Source of the DNA: Candidatus Nanoarchaeia archaeon
GTDB taxonomy: Archaea; Nanoarchaeota; Nanoarchaeia; SCGC-AAA011-G17; JAFCDX01
DNA: 10,130 nucleotides
Assembly (NCBI GenBank): GCA_028717785.1
Contig: JAQUND010000051.1
Span: 1 to 10,130 of the forward strand
Reading direction: 5' to 3'
Shown: positions 1,338 through 7,500 of the stretch, one piece after another
How the letters are laid out: every line of letters begins with the position of its first letter
How positions within the stretch are numbered: the stretch's first letter is position 1
The notes under the pieces: generated by a model
What the model was told of the DNA's origin: nothing
The model's database searches: none
Seen by the model: the letters and a program-made list of their open reading frames with translations, nothing else
Translations under genes and position numbers: made by a program

Positions 1338-1577
1338 ATGTATAATTTAGAATTAGATCAAGTTATAAGCGAAATTAAGAAAGTCAAAGCCAAACGAGTT
1401 TGTATTCAATTACCAGATGGATTGAAAGATAAAGCTTTAGAAATAGTAGATTTTATAGAAAAAAATACTAATGTTAGCTGTTTAATCTGGATGGAAACTT
1501 GTTATGGTGCTTGTGATATTCCTAATTTAAAAGATGTAGATTTATTAGTTCAATTTGGGCATTCTAAAACATTGTAA
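1338..1577 (+). pseudogene. dph2: dph2 (diphthamide synthase) N-terminal remnant, truncated after 79 codons
   Basis: Residues 18-76 match the first domain of archaeal Dph2, the radical enzyme that transfers 3-amino-3-carboxypropyl from SAM to the histidine of EF2 in diphthamide synthesis. Visible are AKRVCIQLPDGLKDKA, the METCYGACD motif carrying the first [4Fe-4S] cysteine, and DLLVQFGHS. Archaeal Dph2 is about 320-340 residues and binds its cluster with one Cys from each of three domains; here the frame stops two to three codons after FGHS, and domains 2 and 3 are not found in the window. The product could not bind the cluster in the known way. The promoter (TATA at 1304-1317, leaderless start) is intact, so decay or rearrangement looks recent, or the truncation is an assembly join. 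Its 3' end overlaps the convergent Nudix-like gene by 33 bp. Confidence 0.85.
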
Positions 1578-2107: not shown

Positions 2108-2114
2108 TTTATAT
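2108..2114 (+). promoter_or_regulatory. TATA box for tRNA-Gly
   Basis: TTTATAT is centred about 29 nt upstream of G1 of the tRNA at 2140, the expected box A position. A short inverted repeat (GGGT-ATAA-ACCC, 2117-2128) followed by T residues lies between it and the tRNA; I give that no function. Confidence 0.65.
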
Positions 2115-2160
2115 TTGGGTATAAACCCTTTTATTTAATGCGCTGGTAGTATAGTGGTTA

Positions 2161-2181
2161 GAGATTCAAAAAAATCGACTA
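2161..2181 (+). other. Probable second tRNA intron, D loop (21 nt; register ambiguous by 2 nt)
   Basis: Removing 2161-2181, 2160-2180 or 2159-2179 gives the same mature sequence, because the flanks repeat TA. Removal restores an 8-nt D loop AGTGGTTA and a fully paired D stem. The insert folds as GATT (2163-2166)/AATC (2173-2176) with an A-rich loop. I do not see a canonical bulge-helix-bulge at the junctions, so splicing is inferred from the tRNA it would restore, not from the splice motif. Confidence 0.55.
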
Positions 2182-2197
2182 ATATCGAACGTTGCCA

Positions 2198-2237
2198 ATA
2201 ACTTTTTGATTAAATCTTTGATCAGAAAGAAGCAAAC
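2198..2237 (+). other. tRNA-Gly intron at the canonical 37/38 site (40 nt)
   Basis: A bulge-helix-bulge is visible. The outer helix is the anticodon stem GAACG/CGTTT. The 4-bp central helix is TTGC (2192-2195)/GCAA (2232-2235). The 5' bulge is CAA (2196-2198) and the 3' bulge ACA (2236-2238). Cuts after the second base of each bulge release 2198-2237 and join positions 37 and 38. Inside the intron a 9-bp stem pairs 2202-2210 (CTTTTTGAT) with 2221-2229 (ATCAGAAAG). This is the substrate form recognised by the archaeal tRNA-splicing endonuclease. Confidence 0.85.
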
Positions 2238-2328
2238 ACGTTTGGGCCCGAGTTCGAGTCTCGGCCGGCGCAGTTTTAATTTAATTATTATTGGGAAAAT
2301 GGGGCGCTTGGAAGTTCTAACCAAAAGA

Positions 2329-2336: not shown

Positions 2337-2364
2337 CATAATATAATGTATTATAGTACATAAT
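2335..2364 (+). repeat. Operator-like repeats over the first module's core promoter
   Basis: TACATAAT occurs at 2335-2342 and again at 2357-2364, a 22-bp period. Between them lies ATAATGTA (2343-2350), which matches the reverse complement of TACATAAT in 7 of 8 bases, so 2335-2350 is a 14/16 palindrome. The array runs from the TATA box to the start codon. A bound regulator would block TBP or the transcription start; the obvious candidate is the wHTH domain of the gene it precedes. Binding is inferred, and A/T-rich sequence raises the chance background. Confidence 0.5.
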
Positions 2365-2938
2365 GAAAACAGAAGATAAAATCATAAGATTATTTATAGA
2401 AGAAAAAAATTCAAAAACCATCAGAGAAATTTCTAAAATAATAAAATCTGATTATAAAATAACTCATACTGCAATACAAAGATTATTAGGAAAAAAAATA
2501 CTTATATCAAAACCAGTAGGCAAAAGTGTTTTGTGTGAGTTAAATAATTTTTATTATGGTCCTGAAATTTATGAAGCCGAAAATAAAAGAAGAGAAAATA
2601 TCCTAAAAAATAAAAATTTAAAACAGATGTATAAAGAGGTTATGAATAAGATAAAATCAAGTTTATTTATTTTTCTCCTTTTTGGTTCATATGCTAAGAA
2701 TAAATCTACTAAATCTTCAGATATTGATATTATTTTTGTTTCAAATGAAAAGAGATTTGAAGAAGAAATATTAAGTATTTTTTCTTTATTTCCAATTAAG
2801 ACCCATGTGTTAGTTTTTACAGAAGAAGATTTTATAAGGATGAAAGATTCAAAAAAATCAAATGTTATTAAAGAAGCAATCGAAAATAATATAATCTTAT
2901 ATGGTATAGAAAATTATTACAATATAAAAAATGCTTAG
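2363..2938 (+). CDS. Winged-helix plus minimal nucleotidyltransferase (MNT) protein, antitoxin-like, module 1
   Basis: A 191-residue two-domain protein. Residues 1-62 look like a winged helix-turn-helix (TIREISKIIKSDYKITHTAIQRLL followed by a wing ending GKSVLCELN). Residues about 85-185 are a minimal nucleotidyltransferase with FGSYAKNKSTKSSDIDI, an exact GS-x10-D-x-D signature (G108 S109, D120, D122) that binds the nucleotide and metals. I do not see a third acidic residue in the following strand (IKTHVLVF), so catalysis may be altered. In known MNT/HEPN pairs the MNT is the antitoxin and, where tested (MntA), transfers AMP to the HEPN partner. Here the stop overlaps the HEPN start by 8 bp, implying translational coupling. 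The wHTH fusion suggests it also controls its own promoter, where repeats lie. Confidence 0.9.
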   Translation: MKTEDKIIRLFIEEKNSKTIREISKIIKSDYKITHTAIQRLLGKKILISKPVGKSVLCELNNFYYGPEIYEAENKRRENILKNKNLKQMYKEVMNKIKSSLFIFLLFGSYAKNKSTKSSDIDIIFVSNEKRFEEEILSIFSLFPIKTHVLVFTEEDFIRMKDSKKSNVIKEAIENNIILYGIENYYNIKNA

Positions 2939-3467
2939 TGACAAAAGAATTAAGGAAGCTGAATCAAATGTTAGACAATATTTAGTAGAAGGTTTGTTAA
3001 AGAAACAAGAGAATGAGACCGCTAAAGAGATGTACGTTGAAAATAGTGATTTGTCTTTGGAAACTGCCCAGAAACTATTATCTTTAGAGACTTCAACTTA
3101 TAAGCCATATTTATGGGTTATAGTTTCTTCCTATTATTCTATGTATTATATTGCAAATGCAGTTTTGCTTAATAACAGTTATAAAGTTGGAGATAAAATA
3201 AGCCATAAAGTAACTAGTGATGCTTTAATTGTTTTTATAAGAGACAAGCTTAAGAAAGACCTTATTGAAGAATATGAAGACATAAAAGAGAATGCTCTTG
3301 AATTAATATCTTCTAAGGCAGATTTTATATTACAATCTTTGGATTTTGAAAGAGAGAAGCGTTCAAAGTTCCAATATCAAATGGATGAACAAGCTAAAAA
3401 ATCAAAAGCATTAACTTCATTAGATAGAGCAAAGCAATTCGTATTTGAATTAAAAAAATTATTATAA
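2931..3467 (+). CDS. HEPN-domain protein, toxin-like partner, module 1
   Basis: A 178-residue all-helical HEPN protein. An N-terminal extension (1-40) precedes helices with SSYYSMYYIANAVLL (67-80), the typical 'YYamf.aa.alL' HEPN helix, then a conserved-looking SHK (91-93), and a late helix starting REKRSKFQY (141-149). Ribonuclease HEPNs carry R-x4-6-H at that last site; here it is R144-S-K-F-Q-Y149, with Tyr instead of His. In the characterised MntA/HepT pair the antitoxin AMPylates a Tyr next to the R-x4-6-H motif, so Y149 is a candidate target; this is inference. ATG at 2931 overlaps the upstream MNT gene by 8 bp, and the PAP2 gene starts 2 bp after its stop, so it sits inside a longer transcription unit. 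Confidence 0.85.
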   Translation: MLSDKRIKEAESNVRQYLVEGLLKKQENETAKEMYVENSDLSLETAQKLLSLETSTYKPYLWVIVSSYYSMYYIANAVLLNNSYKVGDKISHKVTSDALIVFIRDKLKKDLIEEYEDIKENALELISSKADFILQSLDFEREKRSKFQYQMDEQAKKSKALTSLDRAKQFVFELKKLL

Positions 3468-3469
3468 TA

Positions 3470-4084
3470 ATGAAACTATCAAAGAAACTAATTGAAATAA
3501 ATGTAATTTCTCTAGTAATTTTTATCTTAATATTATTAGCTGTTAAATTTACTAATTTATTTACTAATATTAATTTATACATTCACTCTTTATTCTTATT
3601 AATCCAAAATAATTATTTACTAATATTTTCAAGTATTATAGCATTTATTTTTGATACAACTAGTATGGTTGTAATTTCTTTAATAATATCAATATTTATA
3701 TGGAAAAAATACTCAAAGAAAGAAGCAATTTTCTTTAGTATAACAATGTTATTTGATGCTTTAATATTATTTATTTTAAAGAATTTATTTCAAATTCAAA
3801 GACCATTAAATGGATTTGAAACTGATTTTGCTTTTCCAAGTGGACATGCAACAACAGCAATTTTATTCTTTAGTTTGTTAACTTATTTTATAATTAAAAA
3901 ATACAAAAATTTAAAATTAAAAATGATAATAATTTCAATTTTTATGATTACATTAATTTCATTAACAAGATTATATCTAGGAGTACATTATATTAGTGAT
4001 ATTTTAGCTGGATTAGCTCTAGGTACATTTATATTTACTTTAAGTATTATTATACAAAATGGCAGATCTAAATCTAGAATTTAA
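3470..4084 (+). CDS. PAP2-family membrane phosphatase (lipid phosphatase-like)
   Basis: A 204-residue membrane protein with about five to six hydrophobic helices. All three PAP2 motifs are present: K104-x6-R111-P112 (KNLFQIQRP), P123-S-G-H126 (FPSGHAT), and a variant of SR-x5-H-x3-D with Thr for Ser, T166-R167...H173...D177 (TRLYLGVHYISD). The catalytic histidines H126 and H173 are in place, so it should be an active phosphatase using a phospho-His intermediate. Family members dephosphorylate phosphatidic acid or polyprenyl diphosphates; in an archaeon a polyprenyl (dolichyl-type) carrier is plausible, but the substrate cannot be read from sequence. It begins 2 bp after the HEPN stop and ends inside the NSUN gene (26-bp overlap), so these are co-transcribed. 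It is not an expected part of an MNT/HEPN module. Confidence 0.92.
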   Translation: MKLSKKLIEINVISLVIFILILLAVKFTNLFTNINLYIHSLFLLIQNNYLLIFSSIIAFIFDTTSMVVISLIISIFIWKKYSKKEAIFFSITMLFDALILFILKNLFQIQRPLNGFETDFAFPSGHATTAILFFSLLTYFIIKKYKNLKLKMIIISIFMITLISLTRLYLGVHYISDILAGLALGTFIFTLSIIIQNGRSKSRI

Positions 4085-4985
4085 AGAAAAGTTCCTTGAA
4101 CGTTATAAACAGTTAACTGATATAGATCAATTTTTAGAATACTCTCAAACTTTTTTAAGAAGATCAATAAGAGTAAACACTTTAAAAATTTCTGTTGAAG
4201 AATTAAAAGCAAGATTAAAAGATTGGAATTTAAAACAAATTCCATGGTGTAAAGAAGGATTTTGGATTGAACATAAAAGAAAAGAAAGAAGAGATATTGG
4301 TAATTTAATTGAACATACTCTTGGTTATTTTTATGTACAAGAAGCAGCTTCGATGTTACCTCCTTTGGCATTAAATCCAAAAAAGAATTCTATTGTCCTA
4401 GATTCATGTGCTTGTCCTGGAAGTAAGACAACTCAATTAGCTTCTATAATGGATAATACAGGTATTATTGTTGCAAATGATGATAGTTTTTCAAGACTAA
4501 GTGCATTAAATGTTAATTTACAAAAATCTGGAGTTTTAAACACAATTGTTACACTAGGAAAAGCTGAAAGATTCAAAAATGTAAATTTTGATTATATTTT
4601 ATTAGATGCTCCTTGTTCTGGTACTGGAGTTATAAGAAAATCTCCTAGAACTGCTTTAACTTGGAATCCAAATACAGTAAAAAAAATAGCTGGAACACAA
4701 AAATATATGATTATGAATTTATTTGAAAAATTAAAAAAAGGTGGAACAATGGTTTATTCAACTTGTTCTCTAGAACCAGATGAAGATGAAGCTGTAATTG
4801 ATTTTTTAGTTAATAGATTTGATAATGCTAAAATAGAAGATATAAAATTAGATATTAAACGTTCTAAACCAATAATGGAATTTGAAGGAAAAACATTTCA
4901 TAAAGATGTAAGTAAGTGTTTACGTATTTGGCCACAAGATAATGATACAGAAGGATTTTTTGTTTGTAAGATTAAGAAAATATAG
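4059..4985 (+). CDS. NOL1/NOP2/Sun-family RNA (cytosine-5)-methyltransferase
   Basis: A 308-residue SAM-dependent RNA m5C methyltransferase. The N-terminal part includes FLERYKQLTD and SIRVNTLK (36-43), the family's RNA-binding entry motif. The Rossmann core follows: motif I VLDSCACPGSKTTQLA (113-128), motif II IIVANDDS, motif IV DYILLDAPCSGTG (178-190) with C186, and motif VI STCSLEPDEDEAV (234-246). The Cys of TCSLEP (C236) is the nucleophile in this family and that of PCSGTG assists release. The C-terminus ends RIWPQDNDTEGFFVCKIKK, as usual. There is no PUA domain. The target (tRNA or rRNA) cannot be assigned. ATG at 4059 lies 26 bp inside the PAP2 gene; the resulting N-terminus fits the family, so the overlap looks real. 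Confidence 0.95.
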   Translation: MADLNLEFKEKFLERYKQLTDIDQFLEYSQTFLRRSIRVNTLKISVEELKARLKDWNLKQIPWCKEGFWIEHKRKERRDIGNLIEHTLGYFYVQEAASMLPPLALNPKKNSIVLDSCACPGSKTTQLASIMDNTGIIVANDDSFSRLSALNVNLQKSGVLNTIVTLGKAERFKNVNFDYILLDAPCSGTGVIRKSPRTALTWNPNTVKKIAGTQKYMIMNLFEKLKKGGTMVYSTCSLEPDEDEAVIDFLVNRFDNAKIEDIKLDIKRSKPIMEFEGKTFHKDVSKCLRIWPQDNDTEGFFVCKIKKI

Positions 4986-6900: not shown

Positions 6901-7500
6901 ATGGAAAATACAAAATTAGATTTACTTACAAGCAAAAACAGTGTTTTAGTTCTAGTTGATTATCAACCTGCAATGATAAAAGGTGTTGGATCAAGTGATA
7001 GAACTGTTATCAAAAATTGTGCAGTATATGCAGCAAAAGCAGCAAGCATTTTAGATGTACCAGTGATTTTAAGTTCAATAAATCCGTCTATGAATGGAGA
7101 TGTTTTCAAAGAGATTACAAGTTTATTTCCAAAACAACCAGTATTTGCAAGAAAAATGCCAAGTTTTGATGCTTTTGAAGATGAAGCTTTTTTAAAAGCT
7201 GTTAAAAAAACAGGAAGAAAAAAAATAGTTTTATCTGGGTTATGGACTAGTATGTGTTTTGCTTTTACAGCACTTCATGCAATAAAAGAAGGATTTGAAG
7301 TTTATGGACTTATAGATGCTGCAGGTGATTCAACTGTAGATGCTCATAAATATGGAATTAAAAGAATGGAGCAAGTTGGAATGATTCCTGTTACACTAGT
7401 TCAAGTAACATCTGAATGGATGCACGATTGGGCAAATCCAAAAGCAGGAGAACTTGTAAAAGAAGTATATTCAAAATACGATGCAGTTCTTGGAATTTAA
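6901..7500 (+). CDS. YcaC-like cysteine hydrolase (isochorismatase superfamily)
   Basis: A 199-residue cytoplasmic hydrolase of the isochorismatase-like fold. The catalytic triad reads D20 (VLVLVDYQPAM), K85 (FARKMPSFDAF) and C119 (LSGLWTSMCFAFTAL); these align with Asp19, Lys84 and Cys118 of E. coli YcaC. The stretch LDVPVILSSIN, the pattern DAAGDSTVDAHKYGIKRM and the end SEWMHDWANPKAGEL also match YcaC-type proteins, which are close in length (about 208). The physiological substrate of this branch is unknown; amide hydrolysis is likely from the triad. It is a single gene ended by a T-rich terminator. It differs from its neighbours by a perfect SD and somewhat less A/T-biased codons, and the family is mostly bacterial, so transfer from bacteria is plausible. 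Confidence 0.92.
   Translation: MENTKLDLLTSKNSVLVLVDYQPAMIKGVGSSDRTVIKNCAVYAAKAASILDVPVILSSINPSMNGDVFKEITSLFPKQPVFARKMPSFDAFEDEAFLKAVKKTGRKKIVLSGLWTSMCFAFTALHAIKEGFEVYGLIDAAGDSTVDAHKYGIKRMEQVGMIPVTLVQVTSEWMHDWANPKAGELVKEVYSKYDAVLGI

Follow-up and report, generated by a model that had tools for sequence, protein, structure and literature searches.

The tRNA-Gly(GCC) gene and its surroundings

The window, i.e. the whole stretch of 10,130 nt that was analysed, carries at 2140-2272 a gene confirmed by sequence comparison as a predicted tRNA-Gly(GCC) gene with two short introns, and its host appears to be an uncultured, Woesearchaeota-like archaeon. By direct reading, the acceptor and anticodon stems and the T arm are complete after removal of the two inserts. 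The features of the gene and its neighbourhood are displayed in Table 1. T/A-rich boxes like TTTATAT are also found by eye upstream of the syntenic tRNA-Gly genes in the loci L002, L003 and L004. The 133-nt transcript folds with z = -3.84, and none of 200 shuffles was equally stable.

Table 1. Features of the tRNA-Gly(GCC) gene and of its syntenic neighbours in the window
Feature	Position	Strand	Basis and remarks
Dph2-like ORF, 79 aa	1338-1577	+	Left synteny marker in window, G002, G003, G004
TATA-like box TTTATAT	2108-2114	+	26-32 nt upstream of tRNA; by eye
Exon 1	2140-2161	+	Reading, scanner; intronless syntenic genes in L003, L004
Acceptor 5' strand GCGCUGG	2140-2146	+	Reading; pairs with CCGGCGC 2265-2271
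U8-A9, between acceptor 5' strand and D stem		+	Reading; exon 1
D stem 5' GUAU	2149-2152	+	Reading
D loop AGUGGUUA	2153-2160	+	Reading; exon 1
GGUU, exon strand of D-intron central helix	2156-2159	+	Pairs with intron GACU 2177-2180 (4 bp)
G22, end of exon 1	2161	+	Reading, scanner
D-arm intron, 21 nt, at 22/23	2162-2182	+	Cut AG↓A ... AA↓U; site shared by 10 further genes; helix covaries
GAUU, 5' arm of D-intron helix	2163-2166	+	Pairs with AAUC 2173-2176
Exon 2: D stem 3' UAU, C26, anticodon stem GAACG, loop UUGCCA	2183-2197	+	Reading, scanner
Anticodon stem GAACG / CGUUU	2187-2191 / 2239-2243	+	Reading
Anticodon GCC	2194-2196	+	Reading
37/38 intron, 40 nt	2198-2237	+	Strict bulge-helix-bulge; reading, scanner
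Exon 3: A38, CGUUU, variable loop, T arm, acceptor 3' CCGGCGC, A73	2238-2272	+	Reading, scanner
T arm CCGAG-UUCGAGU-CUCGG	2248-2264	+	Reading
Acceptor 3' CCGGCGC; discriminator A73	2265-2271; 2272	+	Reading
PAP2-family gene	3470-4084	+	Right synteny marker common to window, G002, G004 (by eye in G002, G004)
NOL1/NOP2/Sun-type RNA methyltransferase gene	4059-4985	+	Right synteny marker; source of relatives

The gene was analysed with a custom tRNA scanner, which combines bulge-helix-bulge (BHB) geometry with a cloverleaf score and sees only part of the tRNA set. When motif support was counted, both introns were recovered in the window, and a tRNA-Glu was also detected at 9989-9915. The scanner made no calls in the controls on 586 kb of G002 (one Markov-1 copy and the reversed DNA), which were run at a span of 260 nt, the whole-genome scans of G002 and G004 being run at 300 nt. 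Cloverleaf, motifs and scanner agree with the original prediction of a tRNA-Gly(GCC) carrying a canonical 37/38 BHB intron and a D-loop intron. It had also been anticipated that standard finders would miss this gene and that the genome was of the DPANN type, and both points were borne out: the sole ARAGORN call in the window was the tRNA-Glu, Rfam gave no match at 2140-2272 with E ≤ 1, and the named protein matches, including that of the RNA methyltransferase, led to Woesearchaeota/Nanoarchaeota relatives.

The 40-nt insert lies after position 37, as in canonical archaeal introns, and presents a 4-bp central helix (UUGC 2192-2195 with GCAA 2232-2235) between two 3-nt bulges, read as CA↓A and AC↓A. 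Its hairpin is present in the minimum free energy (MFE) structure of the precursor; the boundaries originally given for this insert proved exact and its BHB motif strict. Group I and group II self-splicing introns contain a ribozyme core and are hundreds of nucleotides long. An intron of either group is ruled out here by the lengths of the inserts (21 and 40 nt) and by the lack of any Rfam match to them with E ≤ 1.

Regarding the other genes of the window, a nucleotidyltransferase-like gene and a second short gene directly follow both tRNA genes, at 2363-3467 (+) after tRNA-Gly and at 9810-8724 (-) after tRNA-Glu. They resemble an MNT-HEPN pair (HEPN by eye only), and the two nucleotidyltransferases are 37% identical. 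No such pair was seen by eye beside the tRNA-Gly of L002 and L004.

The D-arm insert in the window

Excision of 2162-2182 leaves the D arm GUAU-AGUGGUUA-GUAU, which is the D arm of the intronless syntenic gene in G004 (L004). The motif is strict on the 5' side, where a 3-nt bulge at 2160-2162 (A2160 G2161↓A2162) sits between the central helix and the intron helix, and relaxed on the 3' side, where the junction A2181 A2182↓U2183 is followed by no firm exon helix. The insert presents the features of a non-canonical archaeal BHB intron, since it lies outside 37/38, its removal restores the cloverleaf and its BHB is one-sided.

In the isolated fold of the window pre-tRNA this BHB is a minority conformer, with a pairing probability of 0.13-0.14 for the D central helix and 0.72-0.86 for the intron helix, and a competing helix (GUUAG 2157-2161 with CUAAU 2179-2183) wins. 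The 42-nt D-arm piece folded alone gave z = -0.69, and 43 of 200 shuffles were as stable. Whole-precursor folds, which covered all the D-intron genes described below except those of G004, G409 and G456, gave central helix probabilities of 0.01 in G053, 0.15 in G002, 0.38-0.47 in G012 and G011, and 0.81-1.0 in G005, G277 and G015. When six D-arm pieces were folded alone, the expected form was obtained in G005, G277 and G015, the competing helix was the MFE structure in the window and G456, and G409 folded in a register shifted by one.

Shuffling of the insert letters in the window alone reproduced the D motif with a frequency of 1.1e-4 when the register was fixed and of 0.018 when any of 14 starts and 7 lengths was allowed. 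The support for a splice motif from the window alone is moderate, suggestive and not decisive; comparison with the relatives settles the identity of the insert as a predicted D intron.

Recurrence and covariation in relatives

Ten further tRNA-Gly genes present an intron at the 22/23 site, so that eleven are known including the window. These are GCC genes in the window, G002, G005, G011, G277, G409 and G456, and UCC genes in G004, G012, G015 and G053. They were gathered by blastn (13 genomes), by exact patterns and by the scan of G004, and these samples overlap. Exact patterns gave five matches in 103 genomes of the order, all of them D introns, ten in 378 genomes of the class (six D introns) and seven in 371 genomes of the phylum (six D introns). 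Read backwards as a control, they matched 3/103, 6/378 and 2/371 genomes (manual count); such a pattern is therefore not specific on its own, and a match was accepted only when a tRNA surrounded it.

Some matches were rejected on this inspection. Those in G123, G279 and G308 are not tRNA, that in G313 is a tRNA-Gly with other introns, the insert match in L100 is inside a sequence unlike tRNA, and the one match on viral contigs (L081) belongs to a different tRNA cluster. This IMG/VR contig carries tRNA-like genes at 7113-7212, one of them with a tRNA-Gly-like D arm and a long stretch before UUGCCA. No match was obtained by blastn of the tRNA-Gly gene against phage records.

The insert starts with AG↓A in 10 of the 11 genes (AG↓G in G011) and ends with AA↓U in all 11, this end being demanded by the pattern in five. 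The genes of G015, G053, G277, G409 and G456 were found by a pattern demanding GACY at the intron end, and the uniformity seen there is in part a product of this selection; no such demand was made at the first finding of the genes in the window, G002, G005, G011, G012 and G004. The positions of the four intron-helix pairs followed from the geometry without any search, and 35 of 36 pairs form over the nine distinct arm pairs of the 11 genes. The first pair is G-C in five of them, C-G in three and A-U in three. Re-dealt arms formed 20.8 pairs on average and only 2 of 200,000 permutations, which ignore relatedness, reached 35; sliding the 3' arm by 1-3 positions left 7-16 of 36 pairs. The view that the D insert lacks a canonical splice motif is thus contradicted by a strict 5' half (4-bp helix, 3-nt bulge and intron helix), in which the intron helix covaries over the 11 genes.

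The insert could instead be removed in another register, for example 2161-2181 (21/22 site, with a D stem pair U13-A22) or 2161-2179. By direct reading the former also gives a full cloverleaf, but it lacks the 4-bp central helix. The latter has the central helix and even the better cloverleaf score taken alone (29.2 vs 28.8 for 2162-2182), but the scanner gives it an intron helix of 0 bp vs 4 bp for 2162-2182. Moreover, an intron helix of at least 3 bp is obtained at 22/23 in every one of the 11 genes, though G004 also fits the register shifted by one, and a different register is regarded as improbable. The length of about 21 nt originally predicted for the insert holds, but the proposed limits, 2159/2161 to 2179/2181, do not, since 2162-2182 has the motif support.

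Other inserts were also found in these genes. The D-intron genes of G002 and G005 present further T-arm introns, and in our own reading the tRNA-Gly genes of G015 and G456 have three introns each. By eye, the tRNA-Gly(GCC) of G008 presents a D-loop insert at another place and a long anticodon-loop insert; tRNA-like genes at 1587-1870 of L087 (G009) and 1369-1526 of L085 (G008) seem to carry D-loop and anticodon-loop inserts at other sites; and L128, L253 and L254 show inserts in or just after the T loop of tRNA-Gly in G313, G409 and G456.

Syntenic genes with and without the D intron

In the window, G002, G003 and G004, the tRNA-Gly(GCC) gene is close to the Dph2-like ORF, which in G004 is on the other strand, and lies upstream of the methyltransferase gene; the window has a PAP2-type gene in between, and one was also recognised by eye in G002 and G004. 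At this place the window and G002 carry the D intron, which G003 and G004 lack; the G002 ortholog also carries its T-arm intron, which is likewise missing from those of G003 and G004. With one and the same D intron occurring in two isoacceptors, and in some syntenic genes but not in others, this is a clean case for the study of intron gain and loss.

The exons of the window and G002 are identical at 65 of 72 positions, and pairing is kept in all four stem pairs that differ, of which one has a two-sided change (29-41, A-U to G-C) and three a one-sided change. Since G002 keeps the D intron at the syntenic place together with stem changes that still pair, the suggestion that this gene copy may be dead seems unlikely to be correct. 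As a pseudogene, the window copy would have been inactivated by the D insert and another tRNA-Gly(GCC) would serve the cell. A second copy is possible elsewhere in the genome of the window, but in G002 blastn (E ≤ 1), the scanner, which misses some tRNAs, and visual inspection of 24 of the 25 Rfam hits showed a single GCC gene; furthermore, the helix of the insert covaries, and we give this explanation very little credence.

Equally improbable is that the insert is retained, giving a mature tRNA with an enlarged D arm and an extra hairpin: the MFE structure of the precursor does have the insert hairpin, tying up part of GGUUAG, but the D loop would grow to 29 nt with one of G18-G19 paired, the syntenic genes of G003 and G004 have an ordinary D arm, and the shared starts and ends of the insert come with covariation beside both junctions.

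As for the left neighbour, it is a stand-alone ORF whose length, 79-83 aa, is conserved in four genomes (window 1338-1577; L002 1610-1852; L003 7147-7389; L004 8816-9067). The window ORF matches the N-terminal part of Dph2 only, and the copies in L002, L003 and L004 were matched by eye.

tRNA introns in two relatives scanned whole

The scanner found 17 tRNA genes in G002, 12 of them with introns and five with two, and 25 in G004 (two contigs, about 804 kb), 16 with introns and four with two. Each genome presented 13 introns outside 37/38. A helix of at least 3 bp supports 7 of the 13 in G002 and 8 of the 13 in G004 (manual count), including one G004 intron at 38/39 that may be a shifted canonical intron; the rest are weaker (0-2 bp) and their registers may be off. 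A two-intron tRNA had been expected to be unusual in such a genome, and this is partly overturned, as both relatives scanned whole commonly have introns outside 37/38.

Rfam gave 25 hits in G002 at E ≤ 1, of which 18 are longer than 80 nt, some of them belonging to tRNA types that have a long variable arm. These 25 hits do not include the Gly(GCC) gene; the D-intron genes of G011 and G277 are among the Rfam matches listed. Since the genes of the window and G002 were missed by Rfam, some essential tRNA genes of this uncultured lineage escape common finders and the tRNA counts for such genomes may be too low.

Splicing enzymes in relatives

With PF01974, 10 of 12 relatives yielded a single EndA gene above the cut-off, G005 and G053 yielded none, and two further matches were weak; with PF02778 a single gene exceeded the cut-off in 10 of 10 relatives, and one further match was weak. 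Profile A2, built from ten EndA proteins, gave one strong match in 6 of 6 relatives and two weak ones in G004. The beta-subunit model NF007084 matched, below its cut-off, the same EndA gene in 5 of 10 genomes and also a weak site interrupted by stops; this model passed its cut-off in none of 14 control genomes and its sensitivity is unproven. No beta subunit or fused three-unit EndA was accepted in the relatives with these four models. Among solved chains, profile A2 detects the N. equitans beta chain with 62.6 bits and the M. kandleri beta-like domain with 56.6 bits, and therefore a beta subunit of those types is unlikely in the relatives. Among the matches listed for this profile no other chain could be recognised as a crenarchaeal beta chain, and a crenarchaeal-type beta subunit may exist in the lineage.

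The EndA profile lacks 10 residues of 2cv8 at the inferred place of the Crenarchaea-specific loop and presents one-residue gaps there against M. jannaschii 1a79; against 4fz2, small gaps fall in the ARMAN-specific loop region. A predicted EndA structure (mean pLDDT 71.9) was not used for conclusions. Two candidates for a second EndA were rejected by inspection: the weak one on C8 of G277 is resolvase-like by eye, and the frame at C1:304731 of G004 reads like a membrane protein. Other weak matches to EndA subunits are found on C29 and C7 of G011, at C2:1095 of G004 and at C8:119223 of G277. In G002, a LAGLIDADG-type gene (L112, 365-1477) lies tail to tail with the EndA gene.

The ligase RtcB was over the cut-off in all eight relatives searched, the G001 match being a mere fragment. 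The RtcB match is broken near profile position 48/49 in G004 (C1:498996-501707), G011 (C22:4289-6890) and G002 (C18:11081-12395). In G004 (952 aa) and G011 (810 aa) the frame is very long, as it would be with an intein or other insert, and G011 also has an unbroken copy.

Proposed processing of the pre-tRNA

Taken together, the locus is very probably a functional tRNA-Gly(GCC) gene with two protein-spliced introns. The pre-tRNA would be transcribed from the box at 2108-2114. An EndA, as known from the relatives, would then cut the strict BHB at 37/38 and also the half-strict, half-relaxed motif of the D arm, with AG↓A at the 5' bulge and AA↓U at the 3' junction. An RtcB-type ligase, likewise known from the relatives, could join the three exons, giving a tRNA of 72 nt whose D arm is GUAU-AGUGGUUA-GUAU.

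Regarding the specificity of the enzyme, the D motif may need a broad-specificity endonuclease, as originally suggested. The single EndA of the relatives resembles the alpha type, which a review describes as narrow (PMC6379350), and relaxed motifs are tied to (alpha-beta)2 and epsilon2 enzymes and to accessory loops in reviews and a structural paper (PMC6379350, PMC4090602, PMC12397907). It is conceivable, albeit doubtful, that relaxed motifs in the D, anticodon and T arms are all cut in this lineage by a single-gene, alpha-only EndA that lacks the crenarchaeal loop; broad specificity and a large load of non-canonical introns would then have arisen with neither a beta subunit nor that loop. 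If it is true that a single EndA cuts these motifs, the published link of subunit type, accessory loops and intron diversity would need an exception.

Comparison with known systems

In the open literature, a search outside which most subscription papers and preprints lie, no paper describing such introns in Woesearchaeota was found.

The insert at 2198-2237 is like the canonical 37/38 archaeal tRNA intron in position and motif, and no difference was seen. As for the D intron, Crenarchaeota and Nanoarchaeota are rich sources of non-canonical tRNA introns, and the published sites include 22/23, 53/54, 29/30 and 30/31, according to the review PMC4090602. The introns treated in that review are alike in the 22/23 site, in the occurrence of two or three introns per tRNA and in their BHB or one-sided hBH/HBh' motifs; they are tied there to alpha2-beta2 enzymes, whereas here one alpha-type gene is found in the relatives and the host is Woesearchaeota-like.

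Atabeyarchaeia and Freyarchaeia, Asgard archaea from wetland soil, also have many non-canonical introns and several per tRNA gene (PMC11291895). However, they are an unrelated lineage, and the same paper gives 92-95% of tRNA genes with introns there vs 12/17 in G002 and 16/25 in G004 as found by the scanner. What is known is therefore the kind of intron, with 22/23 already catalogued, and what is new is the lineage and the single alpha-type EndA without the crenarchaeal loop in the relatives.
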